64,000 bases of DNA, from positions 58,340-122,339 of the forward strand of contig NZ_JOGX01000015.1 in the NCBI RefSeq assembly GCF_000719555.1, in the 5' to 3' direction. Positions within the stretch are counted from its first letter, which is position 1. Each line of letters opens with the position of its first letter. The notes below the pieces were generated by a model. It saw nothing but the letters and a program-made list of their open reading frames with translations, was not told the origin of the DNA and did not search any database. Source of the stretch: Streptomyces sp. NRRL F-5727 (lineage in GTDB: Bacteria; Actinomycetota; Actinomycetes; Streptomycetales; Streptomycetaceae). Shown piece by piece: positions 7,973 through 64,000 of this stretch. Made by a program: the position numbers and the translations under genes.

Positions 7973-9778
7973 TTATGCGTTCTCGGCGAGTTCGAGCCAG
8001 CGCATCTCCAACTCTTCACGTTCTCCAGCGATTTCCCGCAACTCGGCGTCGAGCTTCGCGACCTTCTCGAAATCCGTCGCGTTCTCGGCGATCTGCGCGT
8101 GCAGCTTCGACTCCTTCTCGGAGAGCTTGTCGATCTGCCGCTCGACCTTCTGCAGCTCCTTCTTCGCGGCGCGCGCGTCCGCGGCGGAGAGGCCGGAGGC
8201 GGGCTGCGCCGCGGGCGCGGCGGGGGCCGGGGCGGCCGCCTCGATCATCCGCTGCCGCCGCTCCAGGTACTCGTCGATGCCGCGCGGCAGCATCCGCAGG
8301 GTCCGGTCGCCGAGCAGGGCGAAGGTGCGGTCGGTGGTGCGCTCCAGGAAGAAGCGGTCGTGGGAGATGACGACCATGGAGCCGGGCCAGCCGTCGAGGA
8401 GGTCCTCCAGCTGGGTCAGGGTCTCGATGTCGAGGTCGTTGGTGGGCTCGTCGAGGAAGAGGACGTTGGGCTCGTCCATGAGCAGGCGCAGCAGCTGGAG
8501 TCGGCGGCGCTCGCCGCCGGAGAGGTCGCCGACCGGCGTCCACTGCTTCTCCTTGCCGAAGCCGAACTGCTCGCAGAGCTGCCCCGCGGACATCTCGCGG
8601 CCCTTGCCGAGGTCGACCCGGTCGCGGATCTGCTGCACCGCCTCCAGGACGCGCAGCTGGGCGGGGAGTTCGGTGACGTCCTGCGAGAGGTAGGCGAGCC
8701 GCACGGTCTTGCCGACGACGATCCGGCCGGCCGGCGGCTGCTTCTCGCCCTGGGAGACGGCGGCATCCGCCAGTGCCCGCAGGAGTGAGGTCTTGCCCGC
8801 GCCGTTGACGCCGACGAGTCCGACGCGGTCGCCGGGGCCGAGCTGCCAGGTGAGGTGCTGGAGGAGCGTCTTGGGACCGGCGGTGACGGTCACGTCCTCC
8901 AGGTCGAAGACGGTCTTGCCGAGCCGCGCGTTGGCGAACTTCATCAGCTCGGTGGAGTCGCGGGGCTCCGGCACGTCCGCGATGAGCGCGTTGGCGGCCT
9001 CGATGCGGAAGCGGGGCTTGGAGGTGCGGGCGGGGGCGCCGCGGCGCAGCCAGGCCAGCTCCTTGCGGACCAGGTTCTGCCGCTTGACCTCCTCGGTGGC
9101 GGCGATCCGCTCCCGCTCGGCCCGGGCGAAGACGTAGTCGGAGTAGCCGCCCTCGTACTCGTACACGTCACCGCGCTGCACGTCCCACATGCGGGTGCAG
9201 ACCTGGTCGAGGAACCAGCGGTCGTGGGTGACGCAGACGAGCGCCGAGCGGCGGTTCTGGAGGTGGCCGGCGAGCCAGGCGATGCCCTCGACGTCGAGGT
9301 GGTTGGTCGGCTCGTCGAGGACCAGCAGGTCCTGCTCCTCGATGAGGAGCTTGGCGAGGGCGATGCGGCGGCGCTCGCCGCCGGAGAGCGGGCCGATGAC
9401 CGTGTCGAGGCCGTTCTCGAAGCCGGGCAGGTCCAGGCCGCCGAAGAGGCCGGTGAGCACGTCGCGGATCTTGGCGCTGCCGGCCCACTCGTGGTCGGCC
9501 ATCACGCCGATGACCTCGTGCCGGATGGTGGCCGCCGGGTCGAGCGAGTCGTGCTGGGTGAGCACCCCGAGCCGCAGTCCGCCGCTGTGCGTGACCCGGC
9601 CGGTGTCGGCCTCCTCCAGGCGCGCCAGCATCCGGATGAGGGTGGTCTTGCCGTCGCCGTTGCGCCCGACGACGCCGATCCGGTCCCCCTCGGACACGCC
9701 GAGCGAGACCCCGTCGAGCAGGGCACGGGTGCCGTACACCTTGCTGACGTTCTCGACATTGACGAGGTTGACGGCCAC
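7973..9778 (-). CDS. ABC-F family ATPase (Uup-like, ribosome-associated)
   Basis: A soluble 601-residue protein with two ABC cassettes and no membrane segment. The first cassette has Walker A GRNGDGKTT, signature LSGGERRR and Walker B LLVLDEPTNHLD. The second has GVNGAGKTS, LSGGERRR and VLFLDEPTNDLD. The linker between them is rich in Arg/Lys, as in ABC-F translation factors. The C-terminal 65 residues form a charged coiled coil (KKELQKVERQIDKLSEKE) like the Uup tail that binds nucleic acid. The GTG at 9778 has GGAG about 6 nt upstream. A housekeeping role in ribosome rescue is more likely than antibiotic resistance, since no biosynthesis genes are nearby. Confidence 0.92.
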   Translation of the reverse strand: MAVNLVNVENVSKVYGTRALLDGVSLGVSEGDRIGVVGRNGDGKTTLIRMLARLEEADTGRVTHSGGLRLGVLTQHDSLDPAATIRHEVIGVMADHEWAGSAKIRDVLTGLFGGLDLPGFENGLDTVIGPLSGGERRRIALAKLLIEEQDLLVLDEPTNHLDVEGIAWLAGHLQNRRSALVCVTHDRWFLDQVCTRMWDVQRGDVYEYEGGYSDYVFARAERERIAATEEVKRQNLVRKELAWLRRGAPARTSKPRFRIEAANALIADVPEPRDSTELMKFANARLGKTVFDLEDVTVTAGPKTLLQHLTWQLGPGDRVGLVGVNGAGKTSLLRALADAAVSQGEKQPPAGRIVVGKTVRLAYLSQDVTELPAQLRVLEAVQQIRDRVDLGKGREMSAGQLCEQFGFGKEKQWTPVGDLSGGERRRLQLLRLLMDEPNVLFLDEPTNDLDIETLTQLEDLLDGWPGSMVVISHDRFFLERTTDRTFALLGDRTLRMLPRGIDEYLERRQRMIEAAAPAPAAPAAQPASGLSAADARAAKKELQKVERQIDKLSEKESKLHAQIAENATDFEKVAKLDAELREIAGEREELEMRWLELAENA

Positions 9779-9853
9779 GTTGACTCCAGTGCGGGGTGAT
9801 CGATCGACGTACCAGGGTACGTCCCCGGGGCCGTCGGCGGCCCGCCGCCGAGG

Positions 9854-11137
9854 TCAGGGCCGGGGCCGGCCCGGCCGGTCCACCAGGAACCAGCCCGCCA
9901 GGGCCATCGCGACCGCCGCCGGGGCGGTCACCCTGACGGCCACCAGGGTCGCCGTGTGGCCCTCCAGGAGGCCGCCGAAGCCGGTCATCGACAGGCCGAG
10001 GATCCCCAGCAGGGCGAGCGCGATGCCGAGGGCGGCGAGCGGGCCGGAGCCGCCGGTACGGGGGACCGGCGAGGGGGCCTCGAAGCGGCGGAAGACGGCG
10101 ACGAGCAGGGCCGTCAGCAGGACGGCCGCGGCGAGCCTGAGCGGAAGCTGCGCCCACCAGGCGCCGGTCGCCGGGGCCGGGAGCCGGACGCCGAGCGCGA
10201 GCATCCCGCCGTACACGCCGAGCATCGCCGTCAGGTGCCACAGGAACGCGGTCATGGCGATGCCGTTCGCCGCGACCACCGCCCGCCAGACCCGCGCCCG
10301 CGCCGCGAACCGCGCCCCCGGGCCGCGCAGCAGCTCGACCGCCCCGATCAGCCACAGGCCGTGGCAGAGCAGGGCCAGCGTCGGCGGCGCCATGTTCGAC
10401 ACCTTCTCGCCGGGCATTCCCACCATGGACAGCGGATACGGGCCGAGGGCCACCAGCAGGCCCGCGCCCACGAGCCCCGCCCCCGCGAGCAGCGCCGGGC
10501 GCCGGATCATGCCGTCCGCCCGCAGGAAGCCCAGCTGGTGCACGGCCAGCCAGACGAAGGCGAAGTTCAGGAACTCGACGTACGGAACACCGGCGGCGAA
10601 CCGCAGCACGTCGACGAGGACGGCGGCCCCGGCGAGTCCCGCGAAGGCGCCCCAGCCGTACCGCTCGTGCGCCCGCAGCAGCGGCGGCGTGAACGCGACC
10701 ATCGCCAGGTAGATGCCGATGAACCACAGCGGCTGCGTGACCAGCCGCAGCGCCACCCCGGTCAGTCCGCCGTCGGCGCCGGCCGCCTGGAGGAGCAGCG
10801 CCGCCGCGCCCCACACCGCGACGAAGACCATCGTCGGCCGCAGCAGCCGGCGCAGCCGGGCCCGCAGGAAGTCGGCGTAGCCGGGGCGGGAGCGGTGGGC
10901 CAGGGCGTGCGCGAAGCCGCCCACGAAGAAGAAGACCGGCATCACCTGGAGCGCCCAGGTGACCACCTGGAGCCCGGGCACGACGGCGAGCAGGTTCCCG
11001 ACCCCGTCGGAGGTGACCGCCGCCATCAGCCAGTGGCCGAGGACGACGACGCCGAGCGAGACGACCCGCAGCAGGTCCACATACCGGTCGCGCGCCGCCG
11101 GGGTGGCGGCGGCGAGCTCACGCGCGCTGATTCCCAT
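9854..11137 (-). CDS. Membrane acyltransferase, acyltransferase-3 family
   Basis: A 427-residue integral membrane protein with about ten hydrophobic helices. The N-terminus matches the acyltransferase-3 (OafA/YrhL) pattern: RYVDLLRVVSLGVVVLGHW near residues 18-36 carries the conserved Arg and the probable catalytic His. Family members O-acylate sugars, peptidoglycan, lipids or antibiotics using acyl-CoA from the cytoplasm. No clear substrate gene is next to it. ATG 11137 has no good ribosome site, so the start is less certain. The frame is intact to a TGA at 9854. Confidence 0.85.
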   Translation of the reverse strand: MGISARELAAATPAARDRYVDLLRVVSLGVVVLGHWLMAAVTSDGVGNLLAVVPGLQVVTWALQVMPVFFFVGGFAHALAHRSRPGYADFLRARLRRLLRPTMVFVAVWGAAALLLQAAGADGGLTGVALRLVTQPLWFIGIYLAMVAFTPPLLRAHERYGWGAFAGLAGAAVLVDVLRFAAGVPYVEFLNFAFVWLAVHQLGFLRADGMIRRPALLAGAGLVGAGLLVALGPYPLSMVGMPGEKVSNMAPPTLALLCHGLWLIGAVELLRGPGARFAARARVWRAVVAANGIAMTAFLWHLTAMLGVYGGMLALGVRLPAPATGAWWAQLPLRLAAAVLLTALLVAVFRRFEAPSPVPRTGGSGPLAALGIALALLGILGLSMTGFGGLLEGHTATLVAVRVTAPAAVAMALAGWFLVDRPGRPRP

Positions 11138-54995: not shown

Positions 54996-55025
54996 ACCGA
55001 CGGAATACGTCACTATGGATCGTCG

Positions 55026-55052
55026 TTAGCACTCGATGAGTGTGAGTGCCAG
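55026..55052 (+). promoter_or_regulatory. CIRCE-like (HrcA operator) element before fmdB
   Basis: TTAGCACTC-N9-GAGTGCCAG: the left arm matches the CIRCE consensus 9/9, the N9 spacing is exact and the right arm matches GAGTGCTAA at 6/9, the deviation overlapping the AGGAGG ribosome site. Streptomyces HrcA is known to regulate groE and dnaK-type heat shock genes through CIRCE. Confidence 0.65.
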
Positions 55053-55063
55053 GAGGAAGACTA

Positions 55064-55378
55064 GTGCCGACCTACCAGTACCAGTGCACCGAGTGTGGCG
55101 AGGGCCTTGAGGCGGTCCAGAAGTTCACGGACGACGCGCTGACCGAGTGCCCCGCCTGCCACGGCCGCCTCAAGAAGGTGTTCTCGGCCGTCGGCATCGT
55201 CTTCAAGGGCTCCGGCTTCTACCGGAACGACAGCCGCGGCTCCTCGTCCAGCAGCTCCCCGGCCACGAAGAGCTCGACGTCCTCCACGACGTCCACCTCC
55301 TCGGCCTCGACCGACGCGAAGCCGGCCTCGACGACGTCCACCTCGACGTCCTCGTCGTCCTCGACCCCGGCCGCCTGA
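55064..55378 (+). CDS. FmdB-family zinc-ribbon protein
   Basis: A 104-residue protein. The FmdB zinc ribbon is at the N-terminus: TYQYQCTECGEGLEAVQKF with a second knuckle CPACHGRLKKVF and the typical GIVFKGSGFYRND. The last 40 residues are a Ser/Thr/Pro-rich low-complexity tail. AGGAGG is 7 nt before GTG 55064. FmdB proteins are presumed regulatory or chaperone-like; their function is not settled. The CIRCE-like site upstream points to heat-shock control. Confidence 0.9.
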   Translation: MPTYQYQCTECGEGLEAVQKFTDDALTECPACHGRLKKVFSAVGIVFKGSGFYRNDSRGSSSSSSPATKSSTSSTTSTSSASTDAKPASTTSTSTSSSSSTPAA

Positions 55379-55433
55379 GCCCCACCCCGCAGCACCGCCC
55401 CGGCCCCGGCCCCCACGGGGGGACCCGGGGCCC

Positions 55434-55537
55434 CGGCATGTCCGGAACCACCCGGCCCGGCTCCCCGCCCCGGGCCTCGGCATGTCCCGGACCACCCGGC
55501 CCGGCACCCCGGCCTCGGGCCCCGGCATGTCCGGAAC
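55434..55537. repeat. 44-45 bp GC-rich tandem repeat
   Basis: About 2.3 copies start at 55434, 55478 and 55523, each opening CGGCATGTCC and containing ACCACCCGGCCCGGC. They lie in the gap between fmdB and the MTA phosphorylase gene and are not coding. Confidence 0.75.
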
Positions 55538-55576
55538 CCTCCGCCGGGGCCGGAGCCCCTGCGTAGGGTGACGGGC

Positions 55577-56443
55577 ATGGTGACCACCCCGTCCAGCGAC
55601 GCAGCCCACGACACGTACGCCGAGATCGGCGTGATCGGCGGATCCGGCTTCTACTCCTTCCTCGACGACGTCCGCGAGGTCCCCGTCACCACCCCCTACG
55701 GCGACCCCAGTGACTCCCTCTTCCTCGGCGAGGTCGCCGGCCGCCGGGTCGCCTTCCTCCCCCGCCACGGCCGCGACCACCGCATCCCCCCGCACCGGAT
55801 CGACTACCGCGCCAACCTCTGGGCCCTCCGCTCCCTCGGCGTCCGCCAGGTCCTCGGCCCCTGCGCCGTCGGCGGACTGCGCCCCGAGTACGGCCCCGGC
55901 ACCCTCCTCGTCCCCGACCAGCTGATCGACCGGACCAAGAACCGCGCCCAGACCTACTTCGACGGCGAACCGCGCCCCGACGGCGCCGTCCCCCGGGTCG
56001 TCCACATCTCCTTCGCCGACCCCTACTGCCCCGACGGACGGCAGGCCGCGATCAAGGCCGCCCGCGGCCGGGACTGGCAGGCCGTGGACGGCGGCACCCT
56101 CGTCGTCGTCGAGGGCCCCCGCTTCTCCACCCGCGCCGAATCCCGCTGGCACGCCGCCAACGGCTGGTCCGTCGTCGGCATGACCGGCCACCCCGAAGCC
56201 GTCCTCGCCCGCGAACTCGGCCTCTGCTACACCTCCCTCACCCTCGTCACCGACCTCGACGCCGGCACCGAGACCGGCGAGGGCGTCTCCCACACCGAGG
56301 TCCTCCGCGTCTTCGGCCAGAACATCGGCCGGCTCCGCGACGTCCTCTTCGACACCATCGCCGCCCTCCCGGCCACCGCCGACCGCGACTGTCTCTGCAC
56401 CCATGCCCACGACGGCTGGGACCTCGGCATCGAACTCCCGTGA
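55577..56443 (+). CDS. mtnP: S-methyl-5'-thioadenosine phosphorylase
   Basis: A 288-residue nucleoside phosphorylase splitting methylthioadenosine (or a 6-oxopurine nucleoside) with phosphate, in methionine salvage. Motifs: IGVIGGSGFYSFL (residues 16-28, phosphate loop), LPRHGRDHRIPPHRIDYRAN, VVVEGPRFSTRAES and GMTGHPEAVLAREL followed by TDLDAG. HPEAVLAREL with TDLDAG fits MTAP/MtnP-type enzymes; strict substrate needs assay. ATG 55577 follows TAGGGT (55564-55569) by 7 nt, so it is probably leaderless. Confidence 0.9.
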   Translation: MVTTPSSDAAHDTYAEIGVIGGSGFYSFLDDVREVPVTTPYGDPSDSLFLGEVAGRRVAFLPRHGRDHRIPPHRIDYRANLWALRSLGVRQVLGPCAVGGLRPEYGPGTLLVPDQLIDRTKNRAQTYFDGEPRPDGAVPRVVHISFADPYCPDGRQAAIKAARGRDWQAVDGGTLVVVEGPRFSTRAESRWHAANGWSVVGMTGHPEAVLARELGLCYTSLTLVTDLDAGTETGEGVSHTEVLRVFGQNIGRLRDVLFDTIAALPATADRDCLCTHAHDGWDLGIELP

Positions 56444-56542
56444 ATCTCGTCAAACCCCTCGCCGGGGTGGCCGAGTTGTCCACAGGCAGTGGACTGTCCA
56501 CAGGCCGGAGCGGGACGGCGAGGCGAGCGGGACAGTGAGCGC

Positions 56543-57148
56543 ATGCACACGAACCCGAGCACGAACACACCGCTCACATCCGTCCCCGCCCACGTCTCCG
56601 TCCCCGCCCACGTCTCCGCCCACGTCCCCGCCCACGTCTCCGTCCCCGCCTTCCGCGAGGTGCCGGGCTTCGCGCCGCTGCGGGTCCGCGGCGGCCGGCT
56701 CCGGCCCCGGCTGCGCCGCGCGCCCGGCGCGCTCCTCGTCCTGACGGCCGCCGCGCTCGCCCTCACCGCCGCCCGGCCCGGCCCGCCCGCCCCACCCGGC
56801 GGGTACGACCCCGGGCCCCGCACCCTCGCCGCCCCCGCGGCCCGCTCCCCCGCCCCCGTCCGGCTCGTCTCCGCGCCGGTACGGATCGCGGACGCCGACG
56901 CGGTACGACTCCTGCGCGCCGGCGACCGCGTCGACGTCATCGCCGCGCCGGCCGTCAACTCCCCGCTCGGAGAAGGTGACAGCACGGTCCGGGTGGTGGC
57001 CCGCGCCGCCCGAGTGGCCGAAGTCCCGCCCCCGGGTGAGACTCGTTCGGACGGAGGGGCGTTGATCGTCCTGACCGTGCCCCGGACGACCGCGACCGAG
57101 CTGGCGAGTGCCGGTGTCACCTCCCAACTGGCGGTGACAATGTGCTGA
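56543..57148 (+). CDS. SAF/CpaB-like membrane protein with VPAHV repeats
   Basis: A 201-residue protein. Residues 13-35 are a repeat of the VPAHVS type, encoded by a 12-nt DNA repeat at 56581-56650. A basic stretch and one helix (about 62-80, GALLVLTAAALALTAA) follow. Then comes an extracytoplasmic SAF-like fold: APVRIADADAVRLLRAGDRVDVIAAP resembles the CpaB/RcpC pilus assembly domain, ending in LTVPRTTATELASAG. It has no prepilin or CpaA/TadA partners nearby, so a pilus role is doubtful. ATG 56543 has no clear ribosome site. It precedes mscL by about 110 nt. Confidence 0.7.
   Translation: MHTNPSTNTPLTSVPAHVSVPAHVSAHVPAHVSVPAFREVPGFAPLRVRGGRLRPRLRRAPGALLVLTAAALALTAARPGPPAPPGGYDPGPRTLAAPAARSPAPVRLVSAPVRIADADAVRLLRAGDRVDVIAAPAVNSPLGEGDSTVRVVARAARVAEVPPPGETRSDGGALIVLTVPRTTATELASAGVTSQLAVTMC
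56581..56650 (+). repeat. 12-nt coding tandem repeat (VPAHV unit)
   Basis: Imperfect copies of CCCGCCCACGTCTCCGTC and shorter CCCGCCCACGTC units recur here. They are in frame in the SAF-like gene and would vary in copy number by slippage. Confidence 0.7.
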
Positions 57149-57262
57149 TTCGCACTGACTGCCTGTCAAGTCACCGTCCCGTGTGTACGGATTGGACGGC
57201 TCTGCGCCCTTCACGGCCTAATGGCTGCGCACACAGCAGCACATCCGAAGAAAGGCACCTTG

Positions 57263-57748
57263 GTGGCCGAGAAGAAGGAAAGCGTGATGGCGGGCTTCAA
57301 AGCCTTCCTGATGCGCGGGAACGTGATCGACCTCGCGGTGGCGGTCGTCATCGGCGCCGCGTTCACCAACATCGTGAACTCGGTGGTCAAGGGCATCATC
57401 AACCCCATCGTGGGCGCCTTCGGCACGAAGGACCTGGAGAGCTACGCGAGCTGCCTCAAGGACCCCTGCCGGGTCGTCGACGGCGAAATGCAGGGCATCC
57501 AGCTCCAGTGGGGCCTGGTGCTGAGCGCGATCCTCAGCTTCCTCATCACCGCCGCCGTCGTCTACTTCCTGATGGTCCTGCCGATGGCCAAGGTCCTCGC
57601 CAAGCGCGCCGCGCACGACAGGGCGAAGGAGAGCGTCGGGGAGGTCATGGAGGTCAGCGAGCTGGAGGTGCTCAAGGAGATCCGCGACCACCTGGTCGCG
57701 CAGCGCGGCGGCTCCGGCAGCAGCACGGGCACGCACTCCACCTCCTGA
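57263..57748 (+). CDS. mscL: Large-conductance mechanosensitive channel
   Basis: MscL opens under membrane tension to release solutes in hypo-osmotic shock. The 161-residue protein has the family N-terminus MAGFKAFLMRGNVIDLAVAV, where the first helix (VIGAAFTNIVNSVVKG) forms the pore. The second helix is SAILSFLITAAVVYFLM. The periplasmic loop is long with two Cys (ASCLKDPCRVVD), unusual for the family, and the tail is a charged helix. GTG 57263 has AAAGG seven nt upstream. Confidence 0.95.
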   Translation: MAEKKESVMAGFKAFLMRGNVIDLAVAVVIGAAFTNIVNSVVKGIINPIVGAFGTKDLESYASCLKDPCRVVDGEMQGIQLQWGLVLSAILSFLITAAVVYFLMVLPMAKVLAKRAAHDRAKESVGEVMEVSELEVLKEIRDHLVAQRGGSGSSTGTHSTS

Positions 57749-57767
57749 CCGGAGGGACGCTCCGGGG

Positions 57768-57986
57768 TCAGAGGTGGTGCGGCGGCTTCTCGTCCAGGAA
57801 GCGCGCGAGGTCGGCGGCGCTGCCGCCGGTCGGAGGCCGCTCACCCCACCCGCGGTCCGTGTCGTCCGCGGACTGCGCGTCCAGCGGATCGTCGAAGACG
57901 ATCACCGGCTTCGGAGCGTTCTCGGAATTCGGCCGAATGCCGTTCGGCTTCGCGTCTCGCGGTCCGTGGGCGGGGGCGGTGCTCAT
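57768..57986 (-). CDS. Small conserved acidic protein
   Basis: A 72-residue soluble protein with no motif I can name. The C-terminal half ends SAADLARFLDEKPPHHL. ATG 57986 follows TACCCT (57998-57993) by 6 nt, so it is likely leaderless. It is convergent with mscL, 19 nt between the stops. I judge it a real gene from codon bias, start-site geometry and position. The function is unknown. Confidence 0.65.
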   Translation of the reverse strand: MSTAPAHGPRDAKPNGIRPNSENAPKPVIVFDDPLDAQSADDTDRGWGERPPTGGSAADLARFLDEKPPHHL

Positions 57987-58028
57987 GTCTTCAGGGTACG
58001 CCCGCTCCCCCGCCCCGGACCCGCCTGA

Positions 58029-58442
58029 TCAGCGGTCCTTCGGGTCCAGCGCCCACAGGCCCAGGACCACCAGGAACGACAGGACGAGGAACCCCGCGCC
58101 CCACCACGCGGTGCCGGTGTCGCCGGACATCCACTCGTCCACCACGATGGTCAGCCCCCAGAGCTGGCCGATCACCACCGTGAGCGCCAGCGCCAGCCGC
58201 GCCGACAGCTTCGACGAGCGCTCCGGTTCCTGCTCCGTGCCCGCCCCGGGCCCCGGACCCGTGTGCCGGATCCGCGGGTCGCCGTACCCGCTGGTGGGCC
58301 GGATCTGCGGATACCGCTCGTGGACCGGCCGGTTCAGCCGCGGCTGCGCGCTGCCCGGACGGTACGACGGCGGCCGGTCCGGCGGCGGGGTGCCCGACGG
58401 GCGCGGAGCCTCCGGGTCCTGGGGGAAGGGACTCTCCGTCAC
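58029..58442 (-). CDS. Small two-helix membrane protein co-translated with the Rieske protein
   Basis: A 137-residue protein. The N-terminal 75 residues are Pro/Arg/Ser-rich and disordered. Two helices follow (ALALTVVIGQLWGLTIVV and GAGFLVLSFLVVLGLWAL) joined by WMSGDTGTAWW. The GTG overlaps the Rieske stop in GTGA, so it is the last gene of the oxidoreductase operon and perhaps an assembly factor or accessory subunit. I do not recognise the family. Confidence 0.78.
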   Translation of the reverse strand: MTESPFPQDPEAPRPSGTPPPDRPPSYRPGSAQPRLNRPVHERYPQIRPTSGYGDPRIRHTGPGPGAGTEQEPERSSKLSARLALALTVVIGQLWGLTIVVDEWMSGDTGTAWWGAGFLVLSFLVVLGLWALDPKDR

Positions 58443-59074
58443 GTGCGCTCACTCCTCTCCGGGCCGGACTGCTGCCGGTCGCGGCACAGCCGCAACGCGT
58501 CCCCCTGCTGGCGGCACAGACCCTCCTCCAGGCTCTCGCCGGAGCGGGCGGTACCGATGGCCCAGACACTGCCGTCGACCTGCTCGATCAGGATCACCTT
58601 CGGCAGGCCGCGCGGCGGCGGGCCGGCCGTGACCTCTCCCGTACGGGCGTCGAAGACACCCTCGTGGCACGGGCAGTACAGCTCGCCCTCGCTGCCCCGG
58701 TCCTGGCGCCACAGGACGGCGCAGGCCAGGTGGGTGCAGACGGCCGAGTAGCCGGTGAGGGTGCCGTCCTCCATGCGGATCGCGATGGCCCGGTCCTCGT
58801 CGCCGGGGTAGCGGAAGGCGAGGGACTCGCCGGGCAGGATCCGGTCCGCGATCCTCTTCGGCTCGGGCGGGCCGTCACTGTCGCCGTGCCGGTGCAGGAT
58901 GCCGGAGGCGACGGCGACACCGCCGACGGCGAGACCGCCGGAGACGGTGGCGACGATCCGCAGGTAGTCCCGGCGGGTGGTGAGGGAGTCGGCGGCGATC
59001 CGGTCGCGGAGCGCCTCCTGCGCCGCGTCGGCGCCGGCCTCCGGCGCGGGCGGCTGCGGGTCCGTGACGCTCAT
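58439..59074 (-). CDS. Tat-anchored Rieske [2Fe-2S] protein
   Basis: A 211-residue iron-sulfur protein. The N-terminus LTTRRDYLRIVATVSGGLAV has a twin-arginine-like TRRDYLR followed by a hydrophobic anchor, so the domain should face outward. The cluster ligands are in CTHLAC (Cys-x-His) and CPCHEG (Cys-x-x-His). It differs from the cytochrome bc1 Rieske proteins in its shorter spacing and lack of the usual three-helix N-terminus. The ATG overlaps the ferredoxin stop. It probably relays electrons for the adjacent oxidoreductase. Confidence 0.9.
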   Translation of the reverse strand: MSVTDPQPPAPEAGADAAQEALRDRIAADSLTTRRDYLRIVATVSGGLAVGGVAVASGILHRHGDSDGPPEPKRIADRILPGESLAFRYPGDEDRAIAIRMEDGTLTGYSAVCTHLACAVLWRQDRGSEGELYCPCHEGVFDARTGEVTAGPPPRGLPKVILIEQVDGSVWAIGTARSGESLEEGLCRQQGDALRLCRDRQQSGPERSERT

Positions 59075-59670
59075 CGGACGTCCCTTCCGTTGATCTCGAC
59101 GACGGGCAGACCGCCGGGGACGGGCCACTGCACCTTGTCGGCGGGCACGACCATCGCCACACCGGTGGTGACGGTGGTGCTGCCGAAGGTGAACGAGTCG
59201 GCGACCTGGACGCCGGGGCGCTCGGCGCGGAGCTCGTCGATGGTGCCGTAGAAGAGGGCGCCGGTCGGGCAGACGGTCGCGCACATGGGGGCGAGGCCGT
59301 AGGCGGTGCGGTCGTAGCAGAGGTTGCACTTCATCTGCAGCTTCGCCTGGAGGTCGATCTTCGGCACGCCGAAGGGGCAGGCGTTGACGCAGTTGGCGCA
59401 GCCGATGCAGCGGGTGGTGTCGGCCTGCTGCACCACCCCGTCGGCGGTCACCAGGATCGCGTCGGCGGGACAGACCTCGGCGCACGGGGCGACGGGGTCC
59501 TCGCAGTGCATGCAGACGGTGGGAAGGGAGGCGACGGAGTGACCTTCGTCGGGGTAGTCGAGGTGGATCATCGACTTGCCGCGGTGCGAGTCGCATTCGC
59601 GGCAGGCGGAGACGCATGCCTGGCAGCCGATGCAGCGGCCCGGGTCGATGAAGATCGTGCGGCCCATCAT
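59071..59670 (-). CDS. Four-cluster [4Fe-4S] ferredoxin subunit (DmsB/NrfC-like)
   Basis: A 199-residue cytosolic electron-transfer subunit. Four Cys sets appear in order: CIGCQACVSACRECD; CMHCEDPVAPCAEVCP; CIGCANCVNACPF; and CNLCYDR with CATVCP. This is the arrangement of the beta subunits of complex iron-sulfur molybdoenzymes, linking catalytic and membrane subunits. Two ATGs in tandem (59670, 59667) make the start ambiguous by one residue. It lies 6 nt after the catalytic gene and overlaps the Rieske start. Confidence 0.92.
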   Translation of the reverse strand: MMGRTIFIDPGRCIGCQACVSACRECDSHRGKSMIHLDYPDEGHSVASLPTVCMHCEDPVAPCAEVCPADAILVTADGVVQQADTTRCIGCANCVNACPFGVPKIDLQAKLQMKCNLCYDRTAYGLAPMCATVCPTGALFYGTIDELRAERPGVQVADSFTFGSTTVTTGVAMVVPADKVQWPVPGGLPVVEINGRDVR

Positions 59671-59676
59671 GTGCGG

Positions 59677-61989
59677 TCAGCTCCTCTCCGCGGTGCCCCG
59701 GCCCTGCGGGGACGTGGGCGGCAGGGGGTCGGTGCGGGAGACCTGGGTCTCGGGGTAGGCGGGCCGGCCGGGGGCGGTCGGCGGCGCGGGCACCTCGTCG
59801 ACGCGTTCGGCGGCCTCGATGCGGGCCGCGCAGACCTTGTACTCGGGGATCTTCGACCGCGGGTCGAGGGCGTCGACGGTGAGGGCGTTCGCCGCGGTGG
59901 GGACGGGCCAGTGGTAGGGGACGAAGACGGTGTCGGGCCGGATGGCCTCGGTGACCAGGGCGGGGAAGACCTCGCTGCCGCGGCGGGTGACGACCCGGAC
60001 CGGGTCGCCGTTGCGGAAGCCGTGCGAGGGATGGACCTCGACCCACGGGCGGGGGGTCTGCTCGACGAGGGCGCCGAGCCGGCGGGTCTGGTTGCCGGAC
60101 AGGAAGTGGGCGACGGTGCGGCCGGTGGTCAGCGACAGCGGGTACTCCTCGCTGTACGGGTCCATCGGCGGGTGCCACTCGACGACCTGCAGGTGGATCC
60201 TGCCGTCGGGGTGGTAGGTGCGCCCGTCCTCGAAGAGGCGGGGGGTGCCCGGGTGCTCGGTGGTCGGGCAGGGCCAGGCGATGCCGCCGGTCTCCTCCAG
60301 GCGCTCGTAGGTGATGCCGTAGTAGTCGTTGACGGTGCCGGCGGAGGCGATCCGCAGCTCCTCGAAGACGGAGCGGGAGTCGGGGAAGGCGAACTTGTCG
60401 CCGGCACCGAGCCGCTTGGCCAGCTCGCAGATCACCCAGGTGTCGGTGCGGACGCCGGCCGGGGGCTCCTGGGCCTTGTTGTGCTTGACGACACGGGCCT
60501 CGGCGTTGGCCATGACGCCCTCGTCCTCGGCCCACACGGTGACCGGGAAGACGACGTGCGCGTTGGCGGCGGTCTCGGAGAGGAAGAAGTCGAACTGGGC
60601 GTGGAACTGCAGGGTGTCGTACCCCTCCTTGACCGTGGCGTAGTTCGGCAGGGAGACGAAGGGGTTGTTGCAGATGCCGATGAGGCCGCGGATCTCGGCG
60701 CGCTGCATCTGCCAGACCATCTCCATCATGGAGGTGCCGGCGGGCGGGAGCTCGGACTCCTCGATGCCCCAGATCTCGCAGATCTGACGGCGGTGCTCCG
60801 GGTCGGAGATGGAGCGCCCGCCGGGGAGGAGGTCGGACTTCTGGCCGTGCTCGCGGCCGCCCTGCCCGTTGCCCTGGCCGGTGATGGTGCCGTAGCCGGC
60901 GCCGGGCCTGCCGATGTTCCCGGTGGCGACGCAGAGGTTGATGATGGTGAGGCAGTTCTCGACGCCCTGGGAGTGGTGCTCGACACCGCGGGCGTGCCAG
61001 GCCATGGCCTTGTCCGCGCCGGCGAACATGCGGGCGACCTGGACGATCTGCTCCTCGGGGACGCCGCAGATCTGCGCGGAGCGGGACGGCGGGTACTCGG
61101 CGACGGTGGCTCTGACCTCGTCCCAGCCGGTGGTGTGGGCGGCGAGGTACGCCTCGTCGGTGAGACCCTCGGCGACGATGACGTGCAGCACGGCGTTGAA
61201 GAAGGCCGAGTCGGTGCCGGGCTTGAGGGCGACGTGGACGTCGGCGGTGCGGGCGACGGCGGTCTGCCGGGGGTCGACCACGATGAGGGAGGCGCCGCGG
61301 TCACGGGCCCCCCACAGGTACTGGGTCATCACCGGGAAGCACTCGCCGACGTTGGAGCCGGCGATGAGGAGGCAGTCGGTGAGGAGGATGTCGGAGAAGG
61401 GGTTGCCGGCCCGGTCGATGCCGAAGGCGAGCTTGTTGGCTCCGGCGGCGGAGACCATGCAGAGGCGCCCGTTGTAGTCGACGTGCCTGGTCCTGAGGGC
61501 GACCCGGGCGAACTTCCCGACCAGGTACGTCTTCTCGGAGTACAGGCTCGCACCGCCGAGCAGCCCGAAGGCGTCGTTGCCGTACTCGCCCTGGATGCGG
61601 CGGATCTCGGCGACGGTGTGGTCGAGCGCGTCCTCCCAGCTGACCTCGCGGAACGGCTCGTCGCGGTTGCGCCGCATCAGCGGGGCGGTGAGCCGGTCGG
61701 GGTGGTTGACCTGCTGGTAGGCGTTGATGCCCTTGGGGCAGAGCCGCATCCGGTTGATGTCGTGGTTGCGGGGTTCGACCCCGAAGACCTTGCCGGCCCG
61801 GTCCACCCGCAGGTACATGCCGCACTGCACCCCGCAGAAGCAGCAGTGGGTGGGGACGAGCGTCTCCTCGTTCTGGTCGGCATGCCATCGGTCGGCGGGG
61901 ATCCCGCCGGCGTCCCGGAAGTTGCGCGTCCCGGGCGGGGCGACGGAGGGGTCGAGCGGCAGCGCACGGGGAGGGTCGGTCGCGGTCAC
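59677..61989 (-). CDS. Molybdopterin oxidoreductase, NasC/NarB-like
   Basis: A 770-residue catalytic subunit of the DMSO reductase superfamily. The [4Fe-4S] site is CCFCGVQCG with a distal LCPKG. NGRLCMVSAAGANKLAFG supplies the probable Mo-ligand Cys, as in assimilatory and periplasmic nitrate reductases rather than selenocysteine formate dehydrogenases. There is no Tat signal, so it is cytosolic. The C-terminal domain (from LSLTTGRTVAHFLSG) binds the second molybdopterin. The GTG at 61989 immediately follows the membrane-subunit TAA. Nitrate is a guess; formate or another small substrate is possible. Confidence 0.9.
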   Translation of the reverse strand: MTATDPPRALPLDPSVAPPGTRNFRDAGGIPADRWHADQNEETLVPTHCCFCGVQCGMYLRVDRAGKVFGVEPRNHDINRMRLCPKGINAYQQVNHPDRLTAPLMRRNRDEPFREVSWEDALDHTVAEIRRIQGEYGNDAFGLLGGASLYSEKTYLVGKFARVALRTRHVDYNGRLCMVSAAGANKLAFGIDRAGNPFSDILLTDCLLIAGSNVGECFPVMTQYLWGARDRGASLIVVDPRQTAVARTADVHVALKPGTDSAFFNAVLHVIVAEGLTDEAYLAAHTTGWDEVRATVAEYPPSRSAQICGVPEEQIVQVARMFAGADKAMAWHARGVEHHSQGVENCLTIINLCVATGNIGRPGAGYGTITGQGNGQGGREHGQKSDLLPGGRSISDPEHRRQICEIWGIEESELPPAGTSMMEMVWQMQRAEIRGLIGICNNPFVSLPNYATVKEGYDTLQFHAQFDFFLSETAANAHVVFPVTVWAEDEGVMANAEARVVKHNKAQEPPAGVRTDTWVICELAKRLGAGDKFAFPDSRSVFEELRIASAGTVNDYYGITYERLEETGGIAWPCPTTEHPGTPRLFEDGRTYHPDGRIHLQVVEWHPPMDPYSEEYPLSLTTGRTVAHFLSGNQTRRLGALVEQTPRPWVEVHPSHGFRNGDPVRVVTRRGSEVFPALVTEAIRPDTVFVPYHWPVPTAANALTVDALDPRSKIPEYKVCAARIEAAERVDEVPAPPTAPGRPAYPETQVSRTDPLPPTSPQGRGTAERS

Positions 61990-63105
61990 TTACTGGAAGC
62001 CCTTCTTGACGTGGGTGAGGTAGGCGTTGCCGCGGAGGACGCGCTTGCAGCGGGGGCAGTACTCGGCCCACTCGTCGAAGTCGAGCTTGAGGTCCTTCAT
62101 GGTGCCGCGCAGGTTGTCGACGTAGTCGGGGGTGTCGATGGGCTCGTGGCAGCGGCGGCAGGTCTGGAGCTCCTCGTCCTTGCGGCGGGAGGTGTACTTG
62201 AAGAGCTGCATGCCGACGGCGGCGGGCCGCTGGACGATGTGGAAGAACTTCCCGAAGGGGATGTAGATGAGCGTGAAGACGACCGAGACCATGTGGAGGA
62301 TCGCCAGGAACTCGTAGCCGCCGCCGTGCAGGAAGATCGACGAGAAGGTGAGCAGCAGGCCGGTGACCGAGATGACGATGAGGGCGAGCAGCGGGATCAG
62401 GTCGTAGGCGAACCGCTGGCCGGTGATGGCGCCGCGGTCCTTCATGCGCCGCCACAGGAAGTAGGAGGCGCCGGCGATGACGAGGACGGCGGCGATGTCC
62501 AGGCCGTGGAACATGAGCCAGCCGACGAGGTTCAGCGAGTCGAAGCCGAGGACCTTGAAGCCCCAGATCCGCATCTCGTAGCCGGGGCCGTCGCCGGTGC
62601 CGGACGTGAAGGTGAACCAGCCCCAGGTGAGGGGGAAGGTGATGAGCGCGGCGAGGACGCAGCCCCAGAAGAGGAGCTGGTGGGCGGCCCAGCGGGCGTG
62701 CGAGCGGGCGCCGAGGAACTTCTGGAAGCCGAGATAGGTGGCGATCATCTTCGGCAGGGCGGTGGGGGCCCTGCGGAAGTTCGCGGTGGAGAAGAAGGAG
62801 CCCCAGCCCTGGCGGAAGAGGCGCCGGGCGCCGGGGGCGGAGATCCAGACGGTGTAGCGGTAGGCGACGCCGAAGGCGAGGAAGACGGTGGCGACGGCAT
62901 AGGGCAGCAGGGCCGAGTCGAAGTCGCGGAGCAGCCGGCTGCCGAAGACGATCGCGAGGATCAGGAGGACGGAGACGGCCGTGCCGGCGAGGACGGCGCG
63001 GCGGCGGACGGCGGCGGGTGTCTGGGGCGCGCGGCCGTCCGGGACCGGGGCGGGCGCCTCCGGCTCGGGAGTGGTCGGCTCGGCTGTCTGCGGTGGCTCG
63101 GTCAC
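61990..63105 (-). CDS. NarI-like membrane subunit with C-terminal CxxC pair
   Basis: A 371-residue membrane protein with an N-terminal Pro-rich tail, six to seven helices and several helix histidines (WAAHQLLF, MFHGLD, AILHMVS, KFFHIVQRP) suited to b-type haem. The last 60 residues hold CRRC and CPRC, a metal-binding knuckle, and end KKGFQ. It likely passes electrons between quinone and the ferredoxin subunit. GTG 63105 follows TACCGT (63117-63112) by 6 nt, so the operon mRNA may be leaderless. Spacing to the catalytic gene is 0 nt. Confidence 0.85.
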   Translation of the reverse strand: MTEPPQTAEPTTPEPEAPAPVPDGRAPQTPAAVRRRAVLAGTAVSVLLILAIVFGSRLLRDFDSALLPYAVATVFLAFGVAYRYTVWISAPGARRLFRQGWGSFFSTANFRRAPTALPKMIATYLGFQKFLGARSHARWAAHQLLFWGCVLAALITFPLTWGWFTFTSGTGDGPGYEMRIWGFKVLGFDSLNLVGWLMFHGLDIAAVLVIAGASYFLWRRMKDRGAITGQRFAYDLIPLLALIVISVTGLLLTFSSIFLHGGGYEFLAILHMVSVVFTLIYIPFGKFFHIVQRPAAVGMQLFKYTSRRKDEELQTCRRCHEPIDTPDYVDNLRGTMKDLKLDFDEWAEYCPRCKRVLRGNAYLTHVKKGFQ

Positions 63106-63111
63106 GGGGCC

Positions 63112-63117
63112 ACGGTA
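63112..63117 (-). promoter_or_regulatory. -10 element of the oxidoreductase operon
   Basis: TACCGT ends 6 nt before the membrane-subunit GTG. The -35 region lacks a TTGAC-like hexamer, so an activator or alternative sigma factor may be needed. Confidence 0.5.
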
Positions 63118-63180
63118 GGACGTATGTACCCTTTGGGCCCGTTTTGACCCCCTGGAGGGTGAACGCGTCGCCCGGCGCCC

Positions 63181-63966
63181 TCAGACCGCGTTCAGGCCGT
63201 GGGCGCGGAAGACCTCGCGGACGGAGGCGACCTGCTCGGGGGTGGGCGACGGGGTGTCGTGGAGGGTGAACGGCATGTCCAGTGCCTGCCACTTGGCCTC
63301 GCCCAGCTTGTGGAAGGGGAGGACGTCGACGCGGGAGACGTTGCCGAGGCCGCCGGCGAAGGCGGCGACGCCCTCGACGTTGGCGGGGTCGTCGGTGAGG
63401 CCGGGCACGAGCACGAAGCGGACGTGGACGTCCTGGCCGAGGCCGGCGAGGCGGCGGGCGAAGTCCAGGGTCGGCTTCAGCGGCCGGCCGGTGACCTTCC
63501 GGTAGGTCTCCGGGTCCCAGGACTTGATGTCGAGGAGGACGAGGTCGGTGTCGCGGAGCAGGGCGTCGGTGGCGCGGACGCCGAGGAAACCGGAGGTGTC
63601 GAGGGCGGTGTGCAGACCGAGCTCGTGCTTCATGCGGTGCAGCAGCTCGCCGGTGAAGACGGGCTGGAGCAGCGGCTCACCGCCCGAGACGGTGGCGCCG
63701 CCGCCGGACGCGGCGATGAAGCGGACGTACTTGGACGCCTCGGCGATCACGTCGTCGGCGGAGGTCCGCCTGCCGTTCCGCATCCTCCAGGTGTCCGGGT
63801 TGTGGCAGTAGAGGCAGGTCAGCGGGCAGCCGGAGAGAAAGGTGACGAAGCGGGTGCCGGGCCCGTCGACCCCCGTGGACAGGTCCCACGAGTGCACCGA
63901 CCCCTCGGACGGGCGATGGGTCGCGGCCGCGGCGAGCGTCACGGGGCTGGTGGCGAGGCTGGTCAT
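63181..63966 (-). CDS. pflA: Pyruvate formate-lyase activating enzyme-like radical SAM protein
   Basis: A 261-residue glycyl-radical activase. The radical SAM site CPLTCLYCHNPDTW (Cys-x3-Cys-x2-Cys) lies near residue 51. It is followed by GGGATVSGGEPLLQP, the SAM GGE motif, and by VLLDIKSWDPETYRKVTG and RFVLVPGLTD, all PflA-like. ATG 63966 has AGGAGG eight nt upstream. The partner lyase (pflB) is not in the window but may lie just beyond the edge. PflA-type enzymes are oxygen-sensitive, which is notable in a Streptomyces. Confidence 0.92.
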   Translation of the reverse strand: MTSLATSPVTLAAAATHRPSEGSVHSWDLSTGVDGPGTRFVTFLSGCPLTCLYCHNPDTWRMRNGRRTSADDVIAEASKYVRFIAASGGGATVSGGEPLLQPVFTGELLHRMKHELGLHTALDTSGFLGVRATDALLRDTDLVLLDIKSWDPETYRKVTGRPLKPTLDFARRLAGLGQDVHVRFVLVPGLTDDPANVEGVAAFAGGLGNVSRVDVLPFHKLGEAKWQALDMPFTLHDTPSPTPEQVASVREVFRAHGLNAV

Positions 63967-64000
63967 GGCAGGACCTCCTGAGGGAGGGGTGGGGTGGGTG

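Follow-up and report, generated by a model that had tools for sequence, protein, structure and literature searches.

The 64,000-nucleotide stretch of the soil bacterium Streptomyces sp. NRRL F-5727 that was analysed here (the window; assembly GCF_000719555.1, contig NZ_JOGX01000015.1, positions 58,340 to 122,339) contains a block of five compact minus-strand genes (63105-58029), which most likely encode an apparently undescribed variant of membrane-bound nitrate reductase, composed of parts that are normally found in different enzymes. The genes follow each other in the order membrane subunit, molybdenum (Mo) subunit, four-cluster ferredoxin, Rieske protein and DUF6755 protein, and pflA is situated upstream of them:

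61990..63105, minus strand: NarI-type di-haem cytochrome b subunit, 371 amino acids (aa), six predicted transmembrane (TM) helices, both termini inside (N-in/C-in)
59677..61989, minus strand: NasC-type catalytic subunit with a molybdenum bis(pyranopterin guanine dinucleotide) (Mo-bisPGD) site, putative nitrate reductase, 770 aa, assigned by the NasC model NF047855 (765.8 bits), motifs and tree
59071..59670, minus strand: DmsB/HycB-like ferredoxin with four [4Fe-4S] motifs, 199 aa (Fer4_11)
58439..59074, minus strand: Rieske [2Fe-2S] protein targeted to the twin-arginine translocation (Tat) system, with N-terminal anchor, 211 aa (PF00355)
58029..58442, minus strand: DUF6755 small membrane protein, 137 aa, two predicted TM helices (PF20540, 26.9 bits)
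63181..63966, minus strand: PflA, radical SAM activase of pyruvate formate-lyase (PFL), an optional neighbour and no subunit (TIGR02493, 288.9 bits, cut-off 231.75; CxxxCxxC at residue 47)

The distances from pflA to the membrane subunit gene, from there to the Mo gene and from there to the ferredoxin gene are 75, 0 and 6 nt, while the ferredoxin and Rieske genes and the Rieske and DUF6755 genes overlap by 4 nt each; the genes, coordinates, gaps and overlaps given in a preliminary description of this DNA were all exact when compared with the open reading frames of the window.

It was clearly demonstrated that the five-gene block is a real, widely conserved unit. From 144 loci encoding a relative, 80 Streptomyces-type loci were kept, nearly all of them with Streptomyces names, and the five-gene order was intact within 7.5 kb in 77 of these; in the three exceptions (L044, L073, L078) short contigs (4.2, 6.4 and 5.8 kb) break off within the block, thus the gene set is not due to chance. 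Deinococcus plasmids show an identical five-gene arrangement (4/4), where the proteins are 38-40% (membrane subunit), 47-49% (Mo subunit), 51-55% (ferredoxin) and 39-41% (Rieske) identical to those of the window. The membrane subunit was found in 23 of 396 sampled Actinomycetota genomes, and the wider set, from which the window's own genome was excluded, consists of 23 loci from 22 genomes, two belonging to the same genus and 20 sharing the phylum only. Membrane subunit, Mo subunit, ferredoxin and Rieske protein occur together in 22 of these 23 loci, the 23rd (L142) ending within the Mo gene; in L146 the Mo and ferredoxin genes are split over two frames. The gene-order search across Streptomyces suggested in the preliminary description therefore gave a positive answer, and its authors' reservation that the subunits might not co-occur in other genomes did not materialize (77/80, 4/4 and 22/23 loci).

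DUF6755 is placed directly after the Rieske gene in 77/80 Streptomyces-type and 4/4 Deinococcus loci. Its score in the window is just under the PF20540 cut-off of 27, and four of six relatives scanned are above it. Of the 23 wider loci 16 gave a DUF6755 match, once weakly and at a distance; the protein seems dispensable since it was undetected in the other seven, two of these being interrupted by contig ends. These seven loci would fit the view that the genes are co-located without forming one complex, the Rieske and DUF6755 proteins serving another respiratory complex; however, the Rieske gene is present in 22 of the 23 loci, and it overlaps its neighbours by 4 nt on both sides in the window as well as in the four Deinococcus loci, though the proteins are 38-55% identical, and we regard such a separation as very unlikely.

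The Mo subunit, for which neither a signal peptide nor a TM helix was predicted, matched best the NasC model NF047855, with a score under the cut-off of 1100, which was reached in none of 149 Actinomycetota genomes; the second-best model was the formate dehydrogenase (FDH) alpha subunit (575 bits, under the cut-off of 666), and the NarG model was not among the 25 models shown out of 27. The motifs DYNGR(L/M)CM and TGQ(G/A)NGQGGRE were present in 106/106 Mo rows (DYNGRLCM and TGQGNGQGGRE in the window protein). Cys-Met together with GGRE is common to the compared soluble NasC-type proteins, whereas in the FDH rows Cys, or selenocysteine from an in-frame TGA, precedes His, and LRGQNNVQGA or a near form is also present; His occupies the Met position also in two FDHs of known structure. 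Methionine at this position of the Mo site is a mark of Nas and Nap nitrate reductases, histidine and arginine are marks of FDHs. In a maximum-likelihood tree of 58 rows the 35 family rows formed one group (100/99) and, with the seven NasC rows, a joint group (100/99) separate from the 15 FDHs (100/100). The weak points of the tree are the support of the NasC rows as a single group (77/38) and the length of some branches; the very long branch of the single NasA-flavodoxin row (L012), a protein with nitrate-type motifs, lies outside the joint group. Judged from its sequence, the enzyme resembles nitrate reductases and not formate dehydrogenases.

The preliminary description had proposed either the oxidation of formate made by the lyase or the reduction of an oxyanion; the latter, with nitrate, was favoured by our analysis. 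A formate:quinone oxidoreductase consuming formate from a neighbouring PFL would agree with the full pflB and pflA genes adjoining the complex in 33/68 Streptomyces-type loci, with the FDHs that are the closest solved relatives of the Mo subunit by sequence in the PDB, and with the rank of the Fdh-alpha model. This reading is nevertheless highly improbable, and despite the solved relatives it was rejected on the active-site motifs and the tree: Cys-Met and GGRE stand in all 106 rows instead of Cys/Sec-His and LRGQNN, the Mo rows group apart from the FDHs, no narK-pfl trace exists at 32/68 loci and no PFL is annotated in four Deinococcus stretches of about 25 kb. Moreover, the same genome has a separate formate dehydrogenase above its cut-off, carrying the formate motifs, on contig C1, in addition to NarG, a soluble NasC-type protein and a NasA-flavodoxin-type fusion (NarG and the flavodoxin were identified by eye).

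The membrane subunit gave no Pfam match at E<=0.001 and weak matches to the NCBIfam models of QmoC, TmcC, TcuB and HmcE. The fold of its model is that of NarI/EtfD; the Foldseek matches of this model were mostly G protein-coupled receptors with similar E-values. H142, H200, H271 and H289 are the candidate haem ligands, and the 18-residue spacing of H271/H289 recurs in H187/H205 of NarI. The C-terminus, predicted to be cytoplasmic by the positive-inside rule in 91/91 sequences, bears a putative metal-binding tail, CxxC-x30-CPxC. This tail was compared with that of HycF of the E. coli formate hydrogenlyase (PMC9474812); the HycF-type site is CxxC-x34-CPxC, and a kinship is no more than suggestive. 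In a profile search with the tail ribosomal L34e (E 0.71) and NarI (E 1.1) appeared, and HycF was not listed.

Public records mostly label the membrane subunit as 'MFS transporter', once as TMEM165/GDT1. Among the 120 homologues listed, NarI (PF02665) was precomputed for two, 'nitrate reductase gamma subunit' was the source name of five, and three are fused to a NarK-type domain, all three without the start of the transporter; the 'MFS transporter' label on the plain subunit probably derives from such NarK fusions. A further MFS fusion suspected in L144 from a 902-aa frame was unconfirmed, no MFS family match being obtained.

The cysteine pattern of the four clusters is present in 104/105 ferredoxin rows, the exception being the split frame in L146. 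The Rieske protein (PF00355, 37.3 bits, cut-off 20.3) has one predicted TM helix and the Tat residues R34-R35; by homology C113, H115, C134 and H137 are assigned as cluster ligands and C118/C136 as disulphide. The CxH and CxxH boxes and the disulphide cysteines occur in 103/104 Rieske rows, and the best fold match is AioB of arsenite oxidase, where a Rieske protein is likewise the partner of a Mo enzyme. Since the Tat signal of AioB takes AioA across the membrane, the Tat signal here might similarly carry the Mo subunit and the ferredoxin outside, resulting in an extracytoplasmic reductase (or oxidase). Such an arrangement is quite unlikely: NarK-type linkage and fusions indicate that nitrate is used inside, the tail and the last haem ligand of the membrane subunit are predicted on the inner side, and NarI-type subunits work with inward-facing partners, as established for NarGHI. 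Arsenite oxidase is not known to have a NarI-type subunit; AioA is periplasmic and without an amino-acid Mo ligand according to PMC10100899, unlike the present Cys-Met subunit, in which no signal peptide was seen. That a molybdoenzyme without signal peptide and a Rieske protein with Tat signal are combined in a non-standard, conserved set makes electron flow across the membrane probable, in agreement with the preliminary description.

The neighbourhood also points to nitrate as the substrate. A NarK-type gene stands directly downstream of DUF6755 in 4/4 Deinococcus loci, its product being 39-41% identical to the NarK-type protein of the window's genome (the copy in L102 was checked individually against the family models), and full narK, pflB and pflA genes lie upstream in 28/68 Streptomyces-type loci. 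In 7/23 wider loci there is a NarK-type match of at least 45 bits inside the fetched stretch; for genes from four of these seven the best model was the NarK family TIGR00886, under its cut-off.

This linkage names nitrate and speaks against a quinol-linked reductase of the same build which would act on another oxyanion (chlorate, selenate, iodate), or would serve only nitrate assimilation or redox balance and not respiration. A quinol/haem b anchor is unusual in assimilatory enzymes, and the genome already has the soluble NasC-type protein and the NasA-flavodoxin-type fusion. The alternative, which we consider unlikely, could rely on the aerobic character of Streptomyces and Deinococcus, and the substrate is unreadable from the motifs alone. 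It is also on its side that NasC enzymes are described as only assimilatory in PMC10100899.

The connection with PFL, assumed in the preliminary description, proved to be real, nevertheless optional. The pflB gene could not be inside the window, because window and contig C15 end at the same base. A single PFL was detected in the genome (TIGR01255, 1186 bits, cut-off 994), at one end of contig C123 with a NarK/NarU-type gene before it. Near relatives, e.g. L019, have a continuous narK-pflB-pflA-complex arrangement, and contigs C15 and C123 likely abut. Upstream sequence of 6 kb or more was available for 68 Streptomyces-type loci; of these, 33 had full pflA and pflB (full gene: 80% coverage), 28 of them also the full narK, and 32 had no trace of narK-pflB-pflA; with partial genes also counted, 34 loci had pflA and pflB, 30 including narK. 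Shortened pflB/pflA pieces stand beside the five ordered genes in L029, L031 and L056, and a shortened narK piece was observed beside the ordered complex genes in L045. Among 295 Streptomyces genomes the membrane subunit was found in 65, PFL in 108 (103 over the cut-off) and both in 30, the overlap being counted by eye (Fisher odds 1.67, p 0.08). In 24 of these 30, also by eye, PFL is within 5 kb on the same strand as the membrane subunit; in the window's genome they are on separate contigs, and G436 and G657 have PFL fragments only. Obligate coupling was rejected on the 32/68 loci and the Fisher result: PFL is an optional partner, the linkage being positional and not obligatory. It was also observed that about one third of the sampled Streptomyces species (103/295) carry PFL, a glycyl radical enzyme that is sensitive to oxygen and would not be expected in aerobes.

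Several known systems share parts of this build. Like NarGHI, the block has a Mo enzyme, a four-cluster ferredoxin, a NarI-type di-haem subunit and a NarK partner; unlike NarGHI, its catalytic subunit is not of NarG type, being of NasC/FDH size with a Cys-Met motif, its membrane subunit has an extra N-terminal helix and the CxxC-CPxC tail, a Rieske protein and DUF6755 belong to it, and no NarJ-like gene is among the five. NasC/NarB assimilatory nitrate reductases are soluble. The Mo subunit shares their Mo-site motifs and adjoins them in the tree, with the NF047855 cut-off unreached; unlike them, as predicted from the genes, it is encoded with NarI-like and Rieske membrane partners. Among the literature consulted the nearest described Rieske-containing gene set is the haloarchaeal NarB-NarC-NarGH, in which, according to PMC2483277, a Rieske protein and a b-type cytochrome are encoded with the nitrate reductase and a Q-cycle was proposed. 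That set has NarG as catalytic subunit and NarC as cytochrome, whereas our membrane subunit has a NarI/EtfD fold and no cytochrome-b Pfam match, and is not a bc-type cytochrome b (bc1/b6f, NarBC). For the role of the Rieske protein the nearest idea might come from S. coelicolor Nar1, which needs and co-purifies with the bcc-aa3 supercomplex; it was proposed there that QcrC hands electrons to the outer haem of NarI1, haem bD, with a gain from the Q-cycle (PMC7931247). Nitrate reduction inside is coupled there too to a Rieske-containing complex; the Rieske protein of S. coelicolor belongs to the separate bcc complex, here it is encoded in the reductase operon. Among the open-licence PMC papers listed by the searches we recognised no description of the operon, which is no proof of absence, and no paper there was found with the term 'DUF6755'.

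Gene content, gene order, motifs, predicted topology, tree position and transporter linkage are covered by direct evidence; from these we infer that the five genes probably encode one membrane-bound nitrate reductase with a cytoplasmic catalytic module and a route from menaquinol/Rieske through haems and iron-sulphur clusters to nitrate. Our confidence is good for the assignment as a nitrate reductase complex and moderate for the electron route. Menaquinol and/or a high-potential donor located outside, for example the bcc complex, would deliver electrons to the outer side, where the Tat-anchored Rieske protein would be the redox partner, either by a direct quinol site or by a bcc link. The NarI-type subunit would conduct them through an outer (H200/H271) and an inner haem (H142/H289), the pairs being presumed, to the four-cluster ferredoxin and the NasC-type Mo site, which would reduce NarK-imported nitrate, the presumed substrate, to nitrite in the cytoplasm. 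The process would be electrogenic, with protons released outside and taken up inside. Where narK-pflB-pflA is upstream, PFL might supply formate, and a separate formate dehydrogenase might feed menaquinone at low oxygen; a formate-menaquinone-nitrate chain is possible because the genome has such an enzyme. The reverse direction, nitrite oxidation, was rejected on potentials: a Rieske centre without the Ser and Tyr of bc1 is expected below +300 mV, the nitrate/nitrite couple is at +430 mV.

Searches for Rex, FNR and CRP sites had a negative result both in 32 regions preceding narK and in 40 preceding the membrane-subunit gene; DevR-like matches of a loose kind occurred in 6/32 narK regions (shuffles 3.45) and 0/40 membrane-subunit regions (shuffles 4.4), the narK regions containing coding sequence because the narK query was shortened at its N-terminus. 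No sigma-70-type promoter was found (shuffles 0.2), the opposite strand of the Mo gene has two overlapping terminator-like sites (shuffles 1.1), and an Rfam scan of 55000-64000 gave no family. The gene just downstream of DUF6755 (57768-57986) is conserved in 77/80 loci; its 72-aa product matched no Pfam or NCBIfam family. In L035 (S. zaomyceticus, about 9150-10560) about 1.4 kb separates the membrane subunit and Mo genes; partial or split membrane-subunit matches in G474, G432, G579 and G403 may be broken genes or assembly errors; and L025, a record named Microtetraspora glauca NRRL B-3735 with a 94% identical membrane-subunit gene, is perhaps a mislabelled Streptomyces. All four Deinococcus loci (L099-L102) have, overlapping the operon start, a gene whose product is 65-70 aa long; genes of the FmdE family (L099, L100, L101), for hemerythrin (L100, L101) and for a truncated haemoglobin (L101) are nearby, perhaps with a role in nitric oxide or Mo handling.

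An assimilatory-type catalytic subunit that works in a membrane complex of respiration, together with a dedicated Rieske protein, would cut across the customary separation of Nas and Nar enzymes, and the 'MFS transporter' label in public records makes the system easily overlooked. According to PMC7931247 it is open why S. coelicolor Nar1 needs a Rieske-containing complex, and an operon encoding both offers a direct testable system. We tentatively consider, as a possibility short of an even chance, a self-contained hybrid of bc complex and nitrate reductase: the Rieske protein and the NarI-type haems might share an outer quinol site and split the quinol electrons, one going through the Rieske protein to an outer chain of high potential (cytochrome c, bcc-aa3) and the other across the membrane to nitrate, or the Rieske protein might collect bcc electrons, giving nitrate respiration the protons of the Q-cycle. 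If true, either variant would be a new form of energy conservation with nitrate in Streptomyces, other Actinomycetota and Deinococcus. The complex may, together with pyruvate formate-lyase, provide a low-oxygen energy route in a genus known as aerobic.

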